Shown here: in pieces, positions 3,943 through 60,326 of the stretch
Layout of the letters: every line of letters begins with the position of its first letter
How positions within the stretch are numbered: position 1 is the first letter of the stretch
Assembly: GCF_900148505.1 (NCBI RefSeq)
Contig: NZ_FRXO01000001.1
Span: 434,001-498,000 of the forward strand
DNA length: 64,000 bases
From: Pseudoxanthobacter soli DSM 19599
Lineage (GTDB): Bacteria; Pseudomonadota; Alphaproteobacteria; Rhizobiales; Segnochrobactraceae
Direction of reading: 5' to 3'
The notes under the pieces: model-generated
Told to the model about the DNA's origin: nothing
Seen by the model: only the letters and a program-made list of their open reading frames with translations
Databases searched by the model: none
Made by a program: the position numbers and the translations under genes

Positions 3943-6690
3943 TCACCCCGCTTCGCCGCCGGCCGCGCCGGCCTTGGCCTTCGCCGGTGCTTTCTTTGCG
4001 CCTGCAGACTTGGCACTCGCAGACTTGGCACTCGCAGATTTGGCGCCCGCGGGCTTGGCGGCGGAGGCCTTGCCACCTGAAGACTTGCTCGCGGCTTTGG
4101 GCTTGGCCGTCTTGGCGGGGGCCTCGCCGTCTGCCGCAGCGGTCTTCGAGGCCGTGCTCTTGCCGCGCGTGGGCTTGGCGGGTGACTTCTCGGCCTTGGC
4201 GTCGATCAGCGCGGCCGCCTGCTCGACGGTCAGCGTCGCGGGATCGGTTCCGCGCGGCAGGGTCGCGTTGATCTTGCCGAGGCTGACATAGGGGCCGTAA
4301 CGCCCATCGCGGACCACCATGGCGCCGCCGAGGGTCGGATGGTCGCCAACCGTTCGGCCCGGCGCGGTACCCGGGCGGCCTCGGCCGCCCTTCTCCTGCT
4401 TTTCGGCCAGCAGCGCCACCGCACGGTTGATGCCGACGGTGAAGACCTCGTCCGCCGAGGGCAGGTTCGCGTAAGTGCCGTTGTGCTGGATGAATGGCCC
4501 GTATCGTCCGATGCCGGCCGTGATCGGAGCACCTGTTTCCGGGTGCACGCCGACCTCGCGCGGCAGCGACAACAGCGCCAGCGCCTTTTCGAGGTCGAGG
4601 GTCGATGCCTCCCAGCCGCGCGGCAGCGACGAGCGCTTTGGCTTCTCTCCCTCGCCGAGCTGCACATAGACGCCGAAACGTCCGGACCGCAGCGAAACCT
4701 CAAGCCCAGTCGCGGGATCGGTGCCGAGCACCTTCGGGCCGTCGCTCTCCGCCGTCCCCTCGCCCTCGCCGGGTTTGGTGATCTGGCGGGTGTAGCGGCA
4801 CTCCGGGTAGTTCGAGCAGCCGATGAACGAACCGAACTTGCCGACCTTCAGCGACAGGCGGCCATTGCCGCAGCTCGGGCAGGCGCGCGGGTCCGTCCCG
4901 TCTTCCCGGGGCGGGAAGATGTGCGGCCCGAGCGCATCGTTCAAGGCATCCAGCACCTGCGAGACGCGCAGATCCTTGATCTCGTCAACGGCGTGCGAGA
5001 AGTCCTTCCAGAACAGCCGCAGCACCTCGCGCCAGTCGAGTTCGCCGGCCGAGATCCGATCGAGCTGCTCTTCGAGGCTCGCCGTGAAGTCGTATTCGAC
5101 ATAGCGCTCGAAGAACGAGGACAGGAACGCGATGACGAGGCGTCCCTTGTCCTCCGGCACCAGCCGCTTGCGATCGAGGCGGACATATTCGCGGTCGCGA
5201 AGCACCGACAGCGTGGCCGAATAGGTGGACGGCCGGCCGATGCCGAGTTCTTCCATCTTCTTGATGAGCGTCGCTTCGGTGTAGCGCGGCGGCGGCTCGG
5301 TGAAGTGCTGGCTGGTGTTGACGTCCTTGCGCGTCAGAGGATCGCCGGAAGCCATGGCGGGCAGGCGGCGGGCCTCCTCGTCCTCTTCGTCGTCGCTGCC
5401 TTCCTGGTAGAGCGTCAGGAAGCCGTCGAAACGGACGACGGAACCGGTCGCGCGCAGTTCGGCGCGGCGTTCGCCGGCATCGGCGAGGATATCGACCGTG
5501 GTGCGCTCGATCTCTGCGGATTCCATCTGGCTCGCCACGGTGCGCTTCCAGATCAGCTCATAGAGCTTGGCCTGCTCGGGATCGAGGATGCGCGCGAGGT
5601 CGGCCGGATGGCGCGAGACGTCGGTCGGCCTGATCGCCTCGTGGGCTTCCTGGGCGTTCTTGGCCTTCGTCACATATTTCCGCGGCGCCTGCGGCACGTA
5701 ACGCGGCCCGTGGCGCTTGTCGATCTCGGCGCGGATCGCAGCGACGGCCTCCGGCGCGACGTCGACGCCGTCGGTTCGCATGTAGGTGATGATGCCGGCG
5801 GTCTCGCCGCCGATATCGACGCCCTCGTAGAGCCGCTGGGCGATCTGCATGGTCCGCGCCGGCGGCAGGCCGAGCTTGCGCGAGGCCTCCTGCTGCAACG
5901 TGGAGGTTGTGAACGGCGGATAGGGGTTGCGGCGCGTCGGCTTGGATTCGACCGATGTCACCGACAGGCGCGCGGCGCCGAGCACCTCGGCGATCGCGCG
6001 GGCTTCTTCGGCCGTCTTCACGTCGAGGCGGCCGATCTTCCTGCCGTCGATCGAGGCGAGGCGGGCTTCGAACACCTCGCCCTTCGGCGTCGCGAGGCTG
6101 ACCAGGATCGACCAATATTCCTGGGTGACGAAGGTCTCGATCTCGAGTTCGCGATCGCAGACGAGGCGCAGCGCCACCGACTGCACCCGGCCCGCCGACC
6201 GGGCGCCGGGAAGCTTGCGCCACAGCACCGGCGACAGCGTGAAGCCGACCAGATAATCGAGCGCGCGGCGCGCCAGGTAGGCGTCCACCAGCGGCGCATC
6301 GATCTGGCGCGGATTGGCCATCGCCGCCAGCACGGACGATTTGGTGATCGCGTTGAACACCACCCGCTCGACCGGCTGCGACTTCAGCGCCTTCTTGTCG
6401 CGCAGCACCTGCAGCACGTGCCAGGAAATCGCCTCACCCTCGCGGTCGGGGTCGGTCGCGAGGATCAGCCGGTCGGCGTCCTTCACGGCCTTCGCGATGT
6501 CCGAAAGTCGCTTCTGGGCCTTTGCGTCGACTTCCCAGCTCATGGAGAAGTCTTCGTCCGGCAACACAGAGCCGTCCTTGGCCGGAAGATCCCGGACATG
6601 GCCGTAGGACGCCAGGACGTGATAGTCCGGGCCGAGATATTTATTGATGGTTTTCGCCTTTGCAGGCGATTCCACGATGACGACGTGCAT
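3943..6690 (-). CDS. topA: DNA topoisomerase I (type IA)
   Basis: This 915-residue enzyme relaxes negative supercoils. It starts with the Toprim motif VIVESPAKAKTI and contains the active-site segment ITYMRTDG, whose Tyr makes the DNA-protein link. A zinc ribbon begins CPSCGNGRLSLKVGKFG (about 610), and further topoisomerase C-terminal repeat domains end near residue 825. The last ~90 residues are a low-complexity Lys/Ala/Ser tail, common in alphaproteobacterial TopA and thought to help non-specific DNA binding. AAGGT lies 5 nt before the ATG. dprA lies upstream, past one small gene of opposite orientation. Confidence 0.97.
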   Translation of the reverse strand: MHVVIVESPAKAKTINKYLGPDYHVLASYGHVRDLPAKDGSVLPDEDFSMSWEVDAKAQKRLSDIAKAVKDADRLILATDPDREGEAISWHVLQVLRDKKALKSQPVERVVFNAITKSSVLAAMANPRQIDAPLVDAYLARRALDYLVGFTLSPVLWRKLPGARSAGRVQSVALRLVCDRELEIETFVTQEYWSILVSLATPKGEVFEARLASIDGRKIGRLDVKTAEEARAIAEVLGAARLSVTSVESKPTRRNPYPPFTTSTLQQEASRKLGLPPARTMQIAQRLYEGVDIGGETAGIITYMRTDGVDVAPEAVAAIRAEIDKRHGPRYVPQAPRKYVTKAKNAQEAHEAIRPTDVSRHPADLARILDPEQAKLYELIWKRTVASQMESAEIERTTVDILADAGERRAELRATGSVVRFDGFLTLYQEGSDDEEDEEARRLPAMASGDPLTRKDVNTSQHFTEPPPRYTEATLIKKMEELGIGRPSTYSATLSVLRDREYVRLDRKRLVPEDKGRLVIAFLSSFFERYVEYDFTASLEEQLDRISAGELDWREVLRLFWKDFSHAVDEIKDLRVSQVLDALNDALGPHIFPPREDGTDPRACPSCGNGRLSLKVGKFGSFIGCSNYPECRYTRQITKPGEGEGTAESDGPKVLGTDPATGLEVSLRSGRFGVYVQLGEGEKPKRSSLPRGWEASTLDLEKALALLSLPREVGVHPETGAPITAGIGRYGPFIQHNGTYANLPSADEVFTVGINRAVALLAEKQEKGGRGRPGTAPGRTVGDHPTLGGAMVVRDGRYGPYVSLGKINATLPRGTDPATLTVEQAAALIDAKAEKSPAKPTRGKSTASKTAAADGEAPAKTAKPKAASKSSGGKASAAKPAGAKSASAKSASAKSAGAKKAPAKAKAGAAGGEAG
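4005..4049. repeat. 15-bp tandem repeat (x3) in the topA tail
   Basis: Three adjacent copies of cagacttggcactcg occur here, the third with three changes. On the coding strand they encode an Ala-Ser-Ala-Lys-Ser type pentapeptide within the low-complexity C-terminal tail of TopA. Tail length is likely to vary between strains by slippage. Confidence 0.85.
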
Positions 6691-11354: not shown

Positions 11355-11633
11355 CGCCACACCCTCGAGCCTGACGCTTCGTCGGGCCGGGATGGATGTC
11401 CGCCGCAAACAGATCAGGTCCTTCTGATCGCTGACCACGGATGTACTGGCAGCAATCATCGAGGGACCGGAGAGAAGGTCGGGCTTGCCCGGCCTTTTTT
11501 GCGTTTGGAGGCTGTCTTTAGGAGGCAGTCGGGACGAGGCAGTCGTGTTCGGGAATGCCGCGGCACGGCCCGCGCAGGCTTCCGGGCAGGACCGGCTTCC
11601 GGCAGGGCAGGACCATGCCGGAGTGCCGATGGC
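11355..11633. other. Intergenic region between cspA and the repeat copy
   Basis: No gene was recognised in these ~280 nt. The only clear structure is the terminator at 11475-11500. The right end abuts a degenerate copy of the window's dispersed palindromic repeat. Confidence 0.5.
11475..11500 (+). terminator. Rho-independent terminator downstream of cspA
   Basis: A stem AAGGTCGGGC / GCCCGGCCTT (one T-G pair) with a tight loop is followed by an uninterrupted T run. This is the strongest intrinsic terminator in the window. It lies ~120 nt after the cspA stop on the same strand. Confidence 0.85.
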
Positions 11634-11748
11634 CTGAGGTATCCTGTTCAGATCGCGCCGATCCGAGGACAGGGAGCGGGTCAAAGCCCCAAATCAGGAG
11701 CGACTCCCTGCCGGTCGGATGAAGCCATCCGATCGGAAGACGCTTCAG
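11634..11748 (-). repeat. Dispersed palindromic repeat, degenerate copy A
   Basis: This ~115-bp sequence aligns along its whole length with the copies at 40462, 51879 and 59741, including the gttcagatcg block, the tcaggagcga block and the ccatccgatcggaa block near the right end. It is the most diverged copy. The terminal CTTCAG (CTCTAG in the consensus) carries the TGA stop of the adjacent minus-strand MFS gene. Confidence 0.7.
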
Positions 11749-13232
11749 TGGCCGACGTCCTCCAGGTTCACGCCCTTGGTCTCGATCCGGAAAAGCCACG
11801 TCACCACGGCGCCGATCAGCGAGGTGACGACGAGGCCGGCGAGCAGGGCGTTGGTGCCGATATCGGCGAGCAGGATCGGAAACAGGAACGCGGTCAGCAC
11901 GGCGCCGATCTTGCCGAAGCCGGCAGCGAAGCCCGCCCCGAGGCCACGGATGTGGGTCGGAAAGACTTCCCCTGCGATCAGGTAGGTCTGTGCGTTCGGA
12001 CCGATGTTTGTCATGAAGTTGAACAGCATGAAGCCCGCGAAGATCAGCGTGATCTGGATGCTGCCGCTGTAGTCGTTCGACAGCGCCGCGATGCCGAGGC
12101 CGACGGCGCAACCGATGAACCCGACGACCTGGAGCGGAATTCGGCCGACCTTGTCCGCGAGCACCACCGCGCCGATGATGCCGACGAGCAGCATCACGTC
12201 GATCACCGCCGACGCGCGCGTCGCCGGGATCGCGGCCTGGATCACCTGCCCGATGGTGTGGGCATGGGGGGAGGCCTGATTGCCAAGCAGGACGGCAAGC
12301 ACGGTCGGCGTGAAGATGCCGATGCCGTAGGTGCCGAGATCCTGCAGGAACCACGGCACGGAGGCGAGGATGGTCGCCCGCAGGTTCCGCGGCTTGAAGA
12401 GATCGGCCGGGCTGTGCCGGACCTCATGGGACACGGCACGTTCGGGGCGGCGGAGCTTCACCCGCCCGGGATAGGCCGGTACGCGCTGCAACAGCCGGCC
12501 GGCATGGGTCTCGGCTTCTTCCACGCGGCCGCGCGCCATCAGCCATTGCGGGCTCTCGGTGACGAACAGGCGCGCGATGACGACGATGAGCGCGGGCGGA
12601 ATCACGCAGGCGAACATCACGCGCCAAGCGTCTGGACCGGGTGCCGTCACCAGCACGCCGTAGCCGATGATCGTTCCCGCGAGCGCACCGACGGCCTGGA
12701 AGCCGAAGGCGGACAGCACCATCCGCCCGCGCACACGGCTCGGGATCGTCTCCGAGATGATGATGTGGGCGGTCGGATAGTCGCAGCCGAGCGCGATGCC
12801 GATTCCGAACAGCCAGATGACCAGCAGCGTGAAGCTCGAAGACGTCACCAGAAGCGCGAGGAAGGCGACGAACATCGCCATTTCCAGCACGAACACCGAC
12901 TTGCGGCCGAAATGGTCGCAAAGCCGGCCGAACACCAGCGCGCCGACGAGGATGCCCGCGAGCGTCGCCGCGCCGACGAGGCCGTGCTGGAGCGCGCTCA
13001 TGTTGAAGGCGAGCGAGATCAGCGGCATCGCCACGCCGGTCATGAAGACGACCGCGCCTTCGAAGAACTTTCCCGCTGCCGCAAGCCACCAGATGCGCCA
13101 CTGCATCCGCGTCATCGGCGTCATCGCCAACCGGGTGCCGTTCGCCCACACCGGCGTTTCGTCGAGATATTCCTGAAGGGTGCGGCCTTCCAGGAATCCG
13201 GGCGATTGATCTGCCGTCGAAGTTGCCGTCAT
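11745..13232 (-). CDS. MFS transporter, metabolite:H+ symporter type
   Basis: This ~495-residue protein has about 12 membrane segments. It carries two MFS loop motifs, GRLCDHFGRKSVF between helices 2 and 3 and ADKVGRIPLQ in the second half. The long central cytoplasmic loop (VKLRRPERAVSHEVRH) resembles sugar-porter or aromatic-acid/metabolite symporters, but the substrate cannot be assigned. The frame is open to an ATG at 13289, but that start lacks an SD; the ATG at 13232, which follows GGGGAAGCGGA, is preferred. The stop codon lies inside repeat copy A. Confidence 0.9.
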   Translation of the reverse strand: MTATSTADQSPGFLEGRTLQEYLDETPVWANGTRLAMTPMTRMQWRIWWLAAAGKFFEGAVVFMTGVAMPLISLAFNMSALQHGLVGAATLAGILVGALVFGRLCDHFGRKSVFVLEMAMFVAFLALLVTSSSFTLLVIWLFGIGIALGCDYPTAHIIISETIPSRVRGRMVLSAFGFQAVGALAGTIIGYGVLVTAPGPDAWRVMFACVIPPALIVVIARLFVTESPQWLMARGRVEEAETHAGRLLQRVPAYPGRVKLRRPERAVSHEVRHSPADLFKPRNLRATILASVPWFLQDLGTYGIGIFTPTVLAVLLGNQASPHAHTIGQVIQAAIPATRASAVIDVMLLVGIIGAVVLADKVGRIPLQVVGFIGCAVGLGIAALSNDYSGSIQITLIFAGFMLFNFMTNIGPNAQTYLIAGEVFPTHIRGLGAGFAAGFGKIGAVLTAFLFPILLADIGTNALLAGLVVTSLIGAVVTWLFRIETKGVNLEDVGH

Positions 13233-13461: not shown

Positions 13462-13576
13462 CCGGCTTCATACGCGCAGGAGGCACCAGCCGCCGGTTGC
13501 GCCACCTCGTCTCACGTCGGCCGACGTTCCGGCGTCGACGGACGACCCTTCACCGACAGACTTGCCGCGAGTGCCC

Positions 13577-14065
13577 ATGAGCCGCCTCGATGCCTTCATC
13601 GCCCGCCTTCATGCCCAGAAGGCGCTTCTCGAATATGTCGCCGCGCGCATCGCGGACGTGCCCGGGCCGGTGCTCGAACTCGGGCTCGGCAACGGCCGCA
13701 CGTTCGATCACCTGCGCGAGATTCTGCCCGGCCGCGAGATCTTCGTGTTCGACCGCGCCGTTTCCGCGCATCCCGCGTCGATTCCCGACGGCGAGCACAT
13801 GATCGTCGGCGACATCCGCGAGACGCTGGCCTATTGCGCGCCGCGCGTCGGCAGCCCGGCGGCCTTCATCCACTGCGATCTCGGCACCGGCGATCCGACC
13901 TCGGATCTGGCCCGTTCGGACTGGCTGGCGCCGCTGATTCACGCCCGCACCGCATCTGGCGGCTATGTCGCGACGGGCGTGAAGCTCGACATGCCCGACT
14001 TCGAGACCCTGCCGATGCCCCCGGGCCTGGAAGCCTCGCGCTACAGCATCCTGCGCAAGCGCTGA
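13577..14065 (+). CDS. Small class I SAM-dependent methyltransferase, paralogue 1
   Basis: This 162-residue protein has a SAM-binding motif I, VLELGLGNGRTFDHL (about 31-45), an acidic residue after strand 2 (IFVFDRA) and an Asp-containing motif near HCDLGTGD. It is shorter than most methyltransferases and resembles the compact Methyltransf_17-type family, an assignment from memory. The substrate is unknown. It is the first of two tandem paralogues, 11 nt apart, followed by an aminotransferase. The start is chosen by alignment with the paralogue, which begins with the same MSRLD. Confidence 0.8.
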   Translation: MSRLDAFIARLHAQKALLEYVAARIADVPGPVLELGLGNGRTFDHLREILPGREIFVFDRAVSAHPASIPDGEHMIVGDIRETLAYCAPRVGSPAAFIHCDLGTGDPTSDLARSDWLAPLIHARTASGGYVATGVKLDMPDFETLPMPPGLEASRYSILRKR

Positions 14066-14076
14066 GGCGACGGGAC

Positions 14077-14571
14077 ATGAGCCGTCTCGACAGCTTCATC
14101 CGGCGGCTGACTGCGCAGAAAATCCTGATCGAGCACGCAGTCGGCCTGATCGCGGACGTGCCCGGGCCGATCCTCGAACTCGGCCTCGGCGTCGCCCGCA
14201 CCTACGATCACATGCGCTCGCTCGCGCCGGAGCGGGAGATCTTCGCGTTCGACAATGTCATCGTCGCGCCGATCGATCTTCTGCCGGATGCCCACCATTT
14301 CATCCTCGGCGAAATTCGCGAGACGCTGGCCTTTTGCGGCCCCCGCGTCGGGGCGAAAGCCGCGCTGATGCACAACGACATCGGCTCGGGCGACGAGATC
14401 CACAACGCCGCGACGCGGGCCTGGCTGGCGCCGCTGGTGCCGCCGGCGATGGCGCCGGGCGGCGTGGTGGTGACGAGCTTCGAGATGGACCTGCCGGGTT
14501 ATTCCAAGCTACCGGTGCCGCCGGAAATCGGCCGCAACCGCTATCACATCTACCGGGCGCCGCGCGGCTGA
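14077..14571 (+). CDS. Small class I SAM-dependent methyltransferase, paralogue 2
   Basis: This 164-residue protein is collinear with its upstream neighbour without gaps over most of its length, and roughly half the residues are identical by eye. Shared blocks include MSRLD, IADVPGP, LELGLG, REIF and IRETLA. Motif I here is LELGLGVARTYDHM: the third Gly of the GxGxG loop is replaced, which could alter SAM binding. It is probably a tandem duplication followed by divergence. The 11-nt spacing implies cotranscription. Confidence 0.78.
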   Translation: MSRLDSFIRRLTAQKILIEHAVGLIADVPGPILELGLGVARTYDHMRSLAPEREIFAFDNVIVAPIDLLPDAHHFILGEIRETLAFCGPRVGAKAALMHNDIGSGDEIHNAATRAWLAPLVPPAMAPGGVVVTSFEMDLPGYSKLPVPPEIGRNRYHIYRAPRG

Positions 14572-23458: not shown

Positions 23459-23635
23459 TCCGGCGTGCGGGCCGGCCGGATTGAACCGGTCGGCACGACG
23501 CGGCTATGCTCATGCCACAGAATCCGGGGCATTTCCCTGCGGTCCGGTTGCCGCGCCTCACGGGAACCCGCTCCGGACCGCCCGCAGAACAGGGCGGCCC
23601 CATGAGGCCGCCGCGCCAGAACGGCAAGGACATCC

Positions 23636-40461: not shown

Positions 40462-40579
40462 CTAGAGCGCTTTCCGATCTGATGGAATCATCAGATCGAC
40501 AAGAAATCGCTCCAGATTCAAAAGCTTGAGCATATCCTTGTCGTTCAGATCGATCCGATCTGAACGGGATATGCTCTAG
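40462..40579 (+). repeat. Dispersed palindromic repeat, copy B (inverted orientation)
   Basis: This 118-bp element is bounded by CTAGAGC at both ends (inverted). It contains two internal hairpins, gatctgatg / catcagatc and cgttcagatc / gatctgaacg. Its reverse complement matches copy C at nearly every position and at the same length. It lies in the gap between the aquaporin and purB genes and carries no credible gene. Confidence 0.9.
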
Positions 40580-46338: not shown

Positions 46339-47232
46339 TCAGTTGTCGCCTCCGTCGTCGGAACCGCCGTCGTCCGCTGAGCCACCATCGTCCGAAGAAC
46401 TGTCATCGACTGCATCGCTGCCATCGGATGCACTGTCGTCTGAACTGTCGTCGGACGTTGCCGACTCATCGCTTGCATCGCTGTCATCGGATGCACTGTC
46501 GTTTGAACTGTCGTCGGACGTTGCCGACTCATCGCTTGCATTGCTGTCCTCGGACGCACTGTCGTCTGAACTGTCCTCGGACGTTGCCGACTCATCGCTC
46601 GACGTCTCCTCCGACGTCGATTCCTCACTCGATGTTTCCTCGCTCGAAACGGATTCCTCCACAACCGATTCCTCGCTCGTATAAGCGCTCTCGATCTCGG
46701 TGGTCTCTTCCGAGACATATTCGGAGTAGGAGAACGAGCTTTCTTCGGTCGTCGTCGCTTCCCAGGTCGAGACTTCGGAGACCGAATAGGTCTCATTGTA
46801 GCTTTCGAGCGTGATGATCGCCGCCAACGCGACGATGGCGCCGGCACGGTCGATATTGACATTGTAGTTCGAATTGCCGGTCTTCAGACCGCGGCGCACC
46901 GCGATATCGACATCGATGGGCTTCTTCACCTTGTGCCCGCCGATCTCGACCAGAACATCGCCCGGCTTGATCCCCTGCTTGTCCGCCGCGCCGCCTGGCT
47001 TCACGGAAACGACGAGCAGGCCGTGGGCGGACTTGTCGAGCTTGAAAACCTTCGCGACCTTCGCATTGATCGGCATGAGGAGAGCGCCCAGAGCCCGCGA
47101 AATCGCCGGCTTCGGCAGACCGTGCGCCGCTGGCGAAGCGGCAAAGGCGGCGTGTGGCCCGGCAACGGGCAGGACGGAATGCGCGATCGACAGCGCAATG
47201 GCGCTGGCGGCAATAATCACTTTCTTCTTCAT
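46339..47232 (-). CDS. Secreted PDZ-domain protein with acidic Ser/Asp repeat tail
   Basis: This 297-residue protein has an N-terminal signal peptide (residues 1-31, cleavage after HAAFA). A PDZ domain (about 45-130) includes LLVVSVKPGGAADKQGIKPG. A further hydrophobic patch (AGAIVALAAIITLESY) precedes a ~135-residue tail composed almost wholly of Ser, Glu, Asp, Thr and Ala. Three 21-residue repeats (residues 212-274) begin SDESATS. No protease domain is present. The tail should be disordered and strongly negative, perhaps binding cations or a surface. No named family is recognised. GGAG lies 7 nt before the ATG. Confidence 0.82.
   Translation of the reverse strand: MKKKVIIAASAIALSIAHSVLPVAGPHAAFAASPAAHGLPKPAISRALGALLMPINAKVAKVFKLDKSAHGLLVVSVKPGGAADKQGIKPGDVLVEIGGHKVKKPIDVDIAVRRGLKTGNSNYNVNIDRAGAIVALAAIITLESYNETYSVSEVSTWEATTTEESSFSYSEYVSEETTEIESAYTSEESVVEESVSSEETSSEESTSEETSSDESATSEDSSDDSASEDSNASDESATSDDSSNDSASDDSDASDESATSDDSSDDSASDGSDAVDDSSSDDGGSADDGGSDDGGDN
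46411..46599. repeat. 63-bp tandem repeat (x3) in the PDZ-protein gene
   Basis: Three consecutive 63-bp units (starting 46411, 46474 and 46537) differ at only a few positions each. Each encodes 21 residues of the acidic tail. The unit length is a multiple of three, so copy number could change without a frameshift. Confidence 0.95.
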
Positions 47233-51878: not shown

Positions 51879-51996
51879 CAAGAGCATATCCCGTTCAGAT
51901 CTGATCGATCTGAACGGCAAGGATATGTTCAAGCTCTTGAACTCGAAGCGATTTTTCTTCAATCGGATGTCTCCATCCGATCACAAGGCGCTCTAG
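51879..51996 (-). repeat. Dispersed palindromic repeat, copy C
   Basis: This 118-bp copy has the same length as copy B and is nearly identical to its reverse complement. It shows hairpin gttcagatc / gatctgaac on the left and atcggatg / catccgat on the right. The right terminal CTCTAG contains the TAG stop of ntrX (51993-51995, read on the minus strand), so the ntrX C-terminus ends inside the element. Confidence 0.9.
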
Positions 51997-53360
51997 CCGA
52001 CGCCGAGCGACTTCAGCTTGCGATGCAGCGCGGACCGCTCCATGCCGACGAATTCGGCCGTGCGCGAGATGTTGCCGCCGAAGCGGTTGATCTGCGCCCG
52101 CAGATAGTCGCGCTCGAACGCCTCGCGCGCGTCTCGCAGCGGAAGCGCCATCAGGTGCTCGCCGCCGGAATTCGTCGGCAGCGACGGCACCATGGTGCCG
52201 ATCTCCGCCGGCAGCAGGTCGGCGGTGATCACCGCTTCCTCGTCGCCGCGGGTGAGGATCATCAGCCGCTCGACGTTGTTGCGCAGCTGGCGGATGTTGC
52301 CCGGCCAGTCGTGGGCCTGCAGAACGGCCATGGCGTCGTCGCCGATCCGCCGCTCCGGCAGGCCGGTCGCGCGCGAGATCTGCGCCATGAAGTGCAGCAC
52401 GAGATCCGGGATGTCGTCGCGCCGTTCGGCGAGCGCCGGCACGCGCAGCGGCACGACGCTCAGCCGGTGGAACAGGTCCTCGCGGAACCGGCCCTCGGCG
52501 ATCTCGCTCTCGAGATCACGGGCGGTGGACGACAGCACGCGCACGTCCACCTTCACGCGGGTGGAGCCACCGACGCGCAGGAAGTTCTGGTCCACAAGCA
52601 CGCGCAGGATCTTGTTCTGCGTCTCGCGCGGCATGTCGGCGACTTCGTCGATATAGAGCGTGCCGCCGTGGGCCTCTTCCAGCGCGCCGACCTTGCGCGG
52701 GACGCCGGCCCCGCCTTCGATGCCGAACAGTTCCTCTTCCATGCGCTCGGGCGTGATGGTCGCCGCGTTGACGACCACGAATGGCCCCCGGGCGCGGCCG
52801 GAACGGGCATGGATCGAGCGCGCCGCCAGCTCCTTGCCGGCGCCCGACGGGCCGGAGATCAGGATGCGGCTGTTGGCGGCGGCGATGCGCTCGACCGCCT
52901 GCCGGAGCTGATTCATCGCCGTCGAGTTGCCGACGAGCTCGTCGGCGTCGCTGATGCGGCCCTTCAGGTCGCGGATCTCGCGGCGCAGATTGGAGGCTTC
53001 GAGTGCACGCTCGGTGGCGAGCACTAGCCGGTCTGCCTTGAACGGCTTCTCGATATAGTCGTAGGCGCCGCGCTTGATCGCGGACACGGCGGTCTCGATG
53101 TTGCCGTGGCCGGAAATGATGACGACCGGCAGATCCGGGTGGAGCTGCTGGATGGCATCGAGCAGGGCAAGCCCGTCGAGGCGGCTGCCTTGCAGCCAGA
53201 TATCGAGAATGATGAGCGACGGTCGTCGCTCGCCGATGGCGGCAAGAGCGGAATCGCTGTCGCCCGCGGTGCGGGTGCCGAAGCCCTCGTCATCGAGGAT
53301 GCCGGCGATCAACTCGCGGATGTCCGTCTCATCGTCGACGATCAGGATGTCAGAGGCCAT
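51993..53360 (-). CDS. ntrX: Nitrogen assimilation response regulator NtrX
   Basis: This 455-residue response regulator has a receiver domain with phosphoacceptor Asp in [11 protein letters not shown] sigma-54-type AAA+ domain (Walker [11 protein letters not shown]) and a Fis-type HTH (about 410-455) follow. The sigma-54-contact GAFTGA loop is absent; the corresponding site reads [13 protein letters not shown], as is usual for NtrX, so it probably acts without direct sigma-54 activation. Its start overlaps the end of ntrY by 11 nt, and its stop lies in repeat copy C. Confidence 0.95.
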
Positions 53361-59740: not shown

Positions 59741-59859
59741 TCAGGGCACGCATCCCGCGCAGATCGAACGAGCCGGACGATCAGGATATGCTCAAGCTTT
59801 TGAATCTGGAGCGATTTCTTGTCCATCTGACGATTCCATCAGATCGGAAAGCGCTCTAG
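59741..59859 (-). repeat. Dispersed palindromic repeat, copy D
   Basis: This ~119-bp copy is well conserved in its right two-thirds (aggatatgctcaagctttt onward) and diverged in the left third, where the hairpin pairing is partly lost. The terminal CTCTAG contains the TAG stop of the DUF488 gene (59856-59858). It is the same orientation as copies A and C. Confidence 0.85.
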
Positions 59860-60326
59860 ATCGGGCTTGCGAACAGGTGCTCGACACCGACACCGAGATC
59901 GTCGCAGACGAGGCCGGCCAGAATGTTGCGGTGGCAGTGCTCCGGATGACGTTCGAAGCACAGCAGACAGATCGGCCGGCCGGACCGGACGATGTCGGTC
60001 AGGACCGCGCGTTCTGCAATCGCTTCGGGCGTCTCGAGATGTGCGTCGTAGATGGTTTTGAGGTCGTTCCAGCGGCCGGTGCGCGCGGCGAGGCGGCCCT
60101 CAGCCGGCGTGCCGAGCTTGCGCAGGTGGAGATAATCGATCCCCCGCTCCGCGACGCCGGCGGCGAGCTGGCGCTTGGAAAAGCCCGGCCGGCGCGAGGC
60201 CGCGACGGCGCGTATATCGACGAGGAGCGCGACACCTGCCTCCGCCAGCGCATCGATCACGGCCGGTTGCGTCACCTGCTCGTATCCGATGGTGAAGATC
60301 GGCACTTTCGCCGAGGTCGCCGTCAT
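59856..60326 (-). CDS. DUF488 family protein
   Basis: This 156-residue protein has the DUF488 features FTIGYEQVTQPAVIDAL near the start, LLVDIRAVAASRRPGFSK in the middle and ICLLCFERHPEHCHR near the C-terminus. The conserved Cys/His cluster could bind metal, and no biochemical role is established. The last codons and the stop run into repeat copy D. The reading continues to a family-typical length, so the insertion replaced only the extreme tail. Confidence 0.9.
   Translation of the reverse strand: MTATSAKVPIFTIGYEQVTQPAVIDALAEAGVALLVDIRAVAASRRPGFSKRQLAAGVAERGIDYLHLRKLGTPAEGRLAARTGRWNDLKTIYDAHLETPEAIAERAVLTDIVRSGRPICLLCFERHPEHCHRNILAGLVCDDLGVGVEHLFASPI

Follow-up and report, generated by a model that had tools for sequence, protein, structure and literature searches.

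Background

The CcrM-associated intergenic repeats CIR1-CIR4 of Caulobacter and other alphaproteobacteria are the closest description we found for a repeat family of Pseudoxanthobacter soli, and the two were compared by description. As the cited account of the CIRs has it, both are intergenic and about 110 bp long, consist of two inverted-repeat arms and a linker, end in TA and have one arm whose loop carries GANTC (PMC2229807). In the passages concerned, this 2007 review leaves the target duplication and the mobility of the CIRs open (PMC2229807). The closest mechanism is that of RUP in pneumococcus, for which IS630-Spn1 is the proposed mover; this comparison is also one by description. RUP and our element have in common a length near 107 bp, IS630-like ends, a TA target and a proposed mobilisation in trans, according to the descriptions cited (PMC2229807, PMC3049150).

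In our opinion the element studied here is best taken for a MITE of the IS630 type that is built from two arms like a CIR. It often ends exactly where a neighbouring gene ends, and most of our analysis concerns how this coincidence could arise.

Copies in the window

Four copies of one repeat family are found in the window, i.e. the whole stretch of 64,000 nucleotides analysed here, which covers 434001-498000 of contig C1 in a draft genome of 5.16 Mb and 27 contigs. The first-pass annotation had reported these four repeats and had noticed that three of them supply the stop codon of a minus-strand gene, and both observations are confirmed. Copy A (11634-11748, plus strand, 115 bp) is decayed and holds in its hp2 end the TGA stop (11745-11747) of an MFS or sugar transporter gene (11745-13232, minus strand). 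The hp2 end of copy C (51879-51996, plus strand, 118 bp) holds the TAG stop (51993-51995) of ntrX (51993-53360, minus strand), and that of copy D (59741-59859, plus strand, 119 bp, first arm decayed) holds the TAG stop (59856-59858) of a DUF488 gene (59856-60326, minus strand); all three genes were identified by domain matches. Copy B (40462-40579, minus strand, 118 bp) is the best preserved in the window, has CTAG at both ends and lies between two convergent genes. No gene called with our codon model ends inside it or takes its stop codon from it. A possible fifth copy, strongly decayed, is at 23461-23576 on the plus strand with a profile score of 35.

Aligned to one orientation (A, C and D on the plus strand and B on the minus strand), the copies share the sequence CTAGAGCATATCC...GGAAAGCGCTCTAG, from which A, C and D deviate by mutations. 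The predicted fold and the sequence of copy B give the layout on the minus strand: arm 1 (hp1, 40528-40576) is a GAGCATATCC...GGATATGCTC hairpin, the linker between the arms (40516-40527, about 12 bases) has four of the five bases of GAATC, a GANTC site, and arm 2 (hp2, 40462-40515) has GATTC, also a GANTC site, at its loop and GCGCTCTAG as its terminus. Folding is much stronger than in dinucleotide shuffles for copies A, B and C (z scores of -4.2, -8.0 and -5.5 on the element strand) but not for copy D (z -0.9), whose first arm has decayed by mutation. Copy B shows the two arms with the linker whichever strand is folded, copy C shows arm 1, and A folds differently. No Rfam family matches the copies above the gathering score; the matches in the window are a tRNA and the alphaproteobacterial sRNA ar35, the latter at 11396-11503 shortly before copy A. 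The window has two other sets of repeats, namely a tandem triplicate at 46403-46599 (spacing 63 bases, 90-94% alike) and two blocks at 13567-13851 and 14067-14351, 500 bases apart and 72-78% alike, perhaps a duplicated gene.

The family in the genome

Four copies in one window had been taken to imply a large number in the genome, and this is borne out. BLAST gave at least 85 matches in the P. soli genome with 40 of the 268 candidates scored, and 43 of these matches are 93-100% identical over 112 bases or more. In contigs C1 and C3 our profile search found 52 and 62 copies, i.e. 114 in 1.68 of the 5.16 Mb, and by extrapolation from this 1.68 Mb the whole genome would hold about 350. The core of the element, GAGC...GCTC, is 112-114 bp long with no transposase gene inside, and its consensus runs from a first hairpin arm through a linker of about 12 bases to a second arm. 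Copies are up to 99% alike, which points to a recent spread.

Some copies stand in tandem with a period of 110-114 bases and one dinucleotide common to neighbours, as expected from insertion into a copy's end or from unequal exchange. Such arrays were seen in C3 at 110714-111058, 547609-547943 and 132598-132827. Two junctions in the array at 547609-547943 have an identical mutated sequence, which suggests unequal exchange as well as insertion. Mosaic relatives occur in another genome, G012 (loci L033, L037, L041 and L043); they have the hp2 arm in common with the element and a different first arm with GAGCATTCTC, so that arms seem to have been exchanged between repeat families.

Element ends and target duplication

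The duplicated target is the dinucleotide TA and the element proper is GAGC...GCTC, as can be seen from the 16 copies in which both TA are intact. Their end 4-mers differ from each other in 13 copies, and the bases next to the TA on the inner side are constant (G in 15 of 16 and C in 16 of 16). A duplication of four bases, CTAG, is thus ruled out. The outer base is a pyrimidine at 47 of the 49 intact ends away from stop codons and at 23 of the 30 intact ends on stop codons, where six of the remaining seven have G. The target is YTAR, mostly CTAG and TTAG. The first-pass annotation had proposed to identify the target duplication from empty sites, and these sites (see below) and the end bases agree on a duplicated TA that lies inside YTAR or CTAG. 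We also observed that conservation falls to 55-71% at the terminal TA of the copies, while the interior averages 82%, as if the CTAG had been lost after insertion.

Candidate movers

IS630 elements are known to duplicate TA from in vitro work on ISY100, as far as the cited part of that study goes (PMC2170065). We searched 297 genomes of the order for IS630 transposases and found a match in 84 of them. The 29 newly fetched loci show a pair of terminal inverted repeats in 14 cases, a single end in four and none in 11; in L305 and L331 the pair was picked among close alternatives with GAGC in mind. For an end consensus we used the 14 loci with a pair and two other IS630 loci of relatives, leaving out L271 and the four single-end loci. 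The 31 ends from these 16 loci of other genomes start with GAGC in 29 cases and GAGT in two, and are preceded by CTA in 27 and by TTA in four. The ends of our element match their consensus, GAGCGGATTCCGATCAGT, at 13-15 of 18 positions (p <= 0.003 against shuffles that keep GAGC); against the consensus of the right ends alone, the element's own hp2 end has 12 matches (p 0.013). The terminal inverted repeats are therefore common to the element and to IS630-family elements of the order. In G002, a genome of the same family, the sole element copy found adjoins an IS630 element of the GAGC-ended type, the two having one TA in common. No stop-codon effect is evident at the 32 ends inspected at IS630 loci.

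A cognate transposase in the same genome is typical of a MITE and not part of its definition, as such a partner may get lost. Despite the recent spread suggested by the near-identical copies, the P. soli draft of 27 contigs has no IS630 transposase above the cut-off (NF033545, PF13358), and the two weak hits of this search look like SorC-type regulators. Of two other genomes, G144 gave one weak match and G043 none. We infer an IS630-type mover, which may have been lost or be hidden in assembly gaps; the true mover may also be another.

It is unlikely, in our estimate, that the mover was instead an IS5-family transposase with a YTAR target and a TA duplication. To this family we assign, as an assumption, both IS711 of Brucella and an insertion sequence of the P. 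soli genome, where PF13586 has matches, two of them in copies of this one sequence with the ends AGGCTTGTGGGGATT. It sits at contig ends, and in favour of such a mover its end lies against the TA of an element copy where contig C10 starts (L009 1-95 and the ends of L301 and L302), much as IS711 does in Bru-RS. IS711 targets YTAR with a duplication of TA, and its preferred sites are reported in the cited descriptions to be Bru-RS palindromes (PMC2266754, PMC3163539). Against it stand the ends themselves: those of the IS5-like elements, AGGCTTGTGGGGATT, differ from the element's, which are matched by IS630 ends, and we rejected the IS5-like elements of this genome as movers on this ground.

Is the element a selected regulatory or methylation site?

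Copies are unevenly distributed over the gaps between genes. Convergent gaps hold 35 of the 114 copies against 13% of the intergenic bases, and divergent gaps hold 12 of the 114 against 31%; the scarcity in divergent gaps fits selection against promoter hits. This concentration in convergent gaps, together with the strong hairpins and with GANTC in linker and loop, could be read to mean that the element is not a parasite and is kept by selection as a regulatory or methylation element, e.g. a putative terminator or a CcrM site. The conservation of GANTC argues against this reading, which we find quite improbable. GANTC is kept in 59 of 89 aligned copies in the linker and in 45 of 89 in the hp2 loop, where the consensus has GATTC, no better than other five-base windows: the linker site ranks 25th and the loop site 61st of 112, so that this ranking gives no sign of selection for GANTC.

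Coincidence with stop codons

The association with stop codons seen in three of the four window copies is real and holds over 1.68 Mb. It was counted on genes called with a codon model in this analysis, not on a published annotation (864 genes in C1 and 512 in C3). The terminal triplet is the exact stop codon of the neighbouring gene in 31 of the 114 elements, each a different element, 18 times at an hp2 end and 13 times at an hp1 end. Our profile covers 170 of the 228 element ends, the other 58 being decayed. At the covered ends 34 genes run into an element, 31 of which stop at the terminal triplet and three elsewhere; at a further three covered ends the stop is one base off that triplet. Ten more genes reach in at the 58 decayed ends, with offsets of 3 to 64 and none at offset 0. 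Over all ends, 31 of the 44 genes reaching in thus stop at the terminal triplet, where one third is expected from the reading frame.

These 31 stops are TAG in 29 cases, TAA in one and TGA in one, the last being copy A. TAG is retained at 29 of the 31 stop ends against 48 of the 139 other ends, a contrast that is partly one of definition. The called genes of C1 end in TGA in 711 of 864 cases, and elements hold 15 of the 152 stops in C1 that contain TA. CTAG itself is depleted about 18-fold in C1, where base composition would predict 3206 sites and 174 are present.

It might be supposed that the machinery recognises stop codons or the 3' ends of genes as such, which the concentration of copies in convergent gaps would suit. 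Compared with the free TA or YTAR sites of the same class of gap, stops are indeed over-used (p 4e-6 to 5e-3, used sites added back). Compared with CTAG sites, the excess is not significant once the used sites are added back, neither in convergent gaps (16 of 35 against 0.40, p 0.3) nor in co-directional ones (15 of 64 against 0.19, p 0.22); with the used sites left out, the values are p 0.012 and 0.054. The machinery therefore need not recognise stop codons, and the scarcity of copies in divergent gaps again fits selection against promoter hits. We regard a stop-recognising machinery as very improbable. The coincidence is explained most simply by a CTAG target that is scarce in the genome, by the loss of copies from other sites through selection, and by a first base G that regenerates TAG.

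Protein ends and empty sites in relatives

Relatives without the element mostly end at the same residue. The NtrX tail is equally long in 66 of the 80 named loci, the nearest being Prosthecomicrobium hirschii followed by other Hyphomicrobiales, and also in G001 and G002, two genomes of the same family as P. soli; the element profile has no match in any of the 80 named NtrX loci. The DUF488 protein ends in EHLFASPI in G001 too.

We compared 18 of the 31 stop-ended genes with G001 and G002. Four have no relative there, and one match at 33% identity was dropped as no orthologue. The last residue is identical in nine of the remaining 13 genes, which include DUF488 and MFS, and lies within one residue in 11 of 13; two genes differ from their relatives by 4 and 5 residues. 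Counted by comparison, 14 of 22 end at the identical residue. The end of the MFS gene matches G001 exactly, and its relative in G002 is 21 residues longer. No match to the element profile was found in the G001 and G002 loci fetched for the stop-ended genes.

The relatives in G001 and G002 stop with TGA, which contains no TA, in 20 of the 22 comparisons, and so do both ntrX relatives and the DUF488 relative. Stop-codon turnover would explain this, as TGA is by far the most frequent stop in C1. The two exceptions are TAG for gene 726214 (C1) and TAA, five residues away, for gene 332394 (C3). A TA-bearing stop from before the insertion is thus visible in G001 and G002 for these two genes only, and otherwise in the genus of G144.

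This genus belongs to another family and has 14 genomes, with an element match in G144 alone. We read six copies in G144, which account for all eight matches (two are second-strand matches); one is a short fused form and one has an internal deletion. Four of the six are at stops. We looked for empty sites with joined flanks across the genus, as had been suggested for relatives at the outset, and for two of the six copies found sister species in which a single CTAG, holding the stop, takes the place of the CTAG-element-CTAG of G144. At L238 both alignments that span the site, those of G133 and G138, show this single CTAG, and its TAG stops that same gene, one with an NrtR-type winged helix. The last residue is unchanged in all 12 sister loci, the stop being TAG in seven, TGA in four and TAA in one. 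At L237 the stop is a single CTAG in G134 and G140 (2 of 7 spanning alignments), the other five having TGA or a diverged end; eight of 11 sister loci end at the same residue and three are one residue longer, with TAG in two and TGA in nine. In the case of L234 it is the gene on the other side that ends at the same residue, with TAG in G134 and TGA in two other sisters, and the far flank does not align. The copy at L239 is located where a full-length HypE match ends, the family model being matched to its last position.

Thus the first-pass interpretation stands in part. Insertion at stop codons is supported, and selection for insertions that give a clean new C-terminus is mostly not borne out, with NtrX and DUF488 ending alike in relatives without the element. 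That insertion was random near gene ends and selection kept the clean new C-termini is hardly credible: it would suit the 31 of 44 genes that stop at the first triplet, the two of 13 genes with no relative ending within one residue and the longer MFS relative in G002, but NtrX and nine of the 13 other genes keep their last residue and the sister species have the same stop before insertion, so that we reject it at the loci with orthologues or empty sites.

Two observations go beyond this family and bear on the wider class suggested below. In L108, one of the 80 NtrX loci and part of a Rhodoplanes metagenome-assembled genome (MAG), the TGA stop of ntrX near position 5371 is also the start of a two-hairpin repeat with different and unrelated arms (GAGCATGATCCCGAAAAGTGG...), a second and independent landing at this stop. 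In 718 kb of named loci, a strict pattern search found one CTAGAGC...GCTCTAA repeat, which lies in a Bradyrhizobium MAG and terminates a long open frame there.

Proposed mechanism

Very probably the element, with its two hairpin arms and short linker, is a non-autonomous MITE of the IS630/Tc1-mariner type that has a TA/YTAR target and does not affect the protein when it lands on TAG or TAA stops. An IS630-type transposase, presumably acting in trans in this lineage, would bind the TA-GAGC ends and paste the element into a TA dinucleotide, preferably in YTAR and above all in CTAG. The TA would be duplicated, turning an empty C-TA-G into C-TA-[GAGC...GCTC]-TA-G. Both strands of the element start with G, so that a hit in the TA of a stop codon, be it TAG or TAA, would rebuild TAG in frame and leave the protein unchanged. 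Insertions in genes or promoters would be selected against. With these other sites cleared by selection, as we suppose, and CTAG rare elsewhere, a large share of the surviving copies would be found on stop codons.

The stop-codon coincidence then comes down to one base, namely that the element starts with G. As a rule, a TA-targeting element that begins with G would be silent to the protein on TAA and TAG, which any genome with repeats of this kind could be used to test. The rule accounts for part of the stop-codon usage, i.e. the share of the TA-containing stops in C1 given above.

Comparison with known systems

Our analysis reads the target, its duplication and a likely partner family of a two-arm repeat from sequence alone. 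Beyond the CIRs as reviewed, the element has a TA duplication, empty sites and IS630-like ends. RIMEs are intergenic mosaic elements of rhizobia, and RIME1 can be likened to the element by description. In titles and abstract openings of the open-access literature we found no paper on the landing of such repeats on stop codons.

RUP differs from the element in belonging to another phylum, and the descriptions cited above give it no two-arm layout or stop-codon landing. Bru-RS1 and Bru-RS2 of Brucella can also be likened to the element by description; Bru-RS1 is a 103-bp palindromic repeat and, in the accounts cited, a landing site for an insertion sequence that targets YTAR (PMC2266754, PMC3163539). 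MITEPsy1 of Pseudomonas syringae is, like the element, a short MITE (100 bp) and inserts at CTAG or YTAA; unlike it, it has a 4-nt duplication and ISPsy2-like ends in place of TA and GAGC, as the cited part of its description states (PMC3189936).

We speculate, tentatively, that CIR, RIME, Bru-RS and the present family could form one class of IS630-type MITEs with a CTAG target, for which stop codons are a refuge. If this is true, such elements hold a measurable share of the TAG stops and give genes ready 3' hairpins while leaving the protein untouched.
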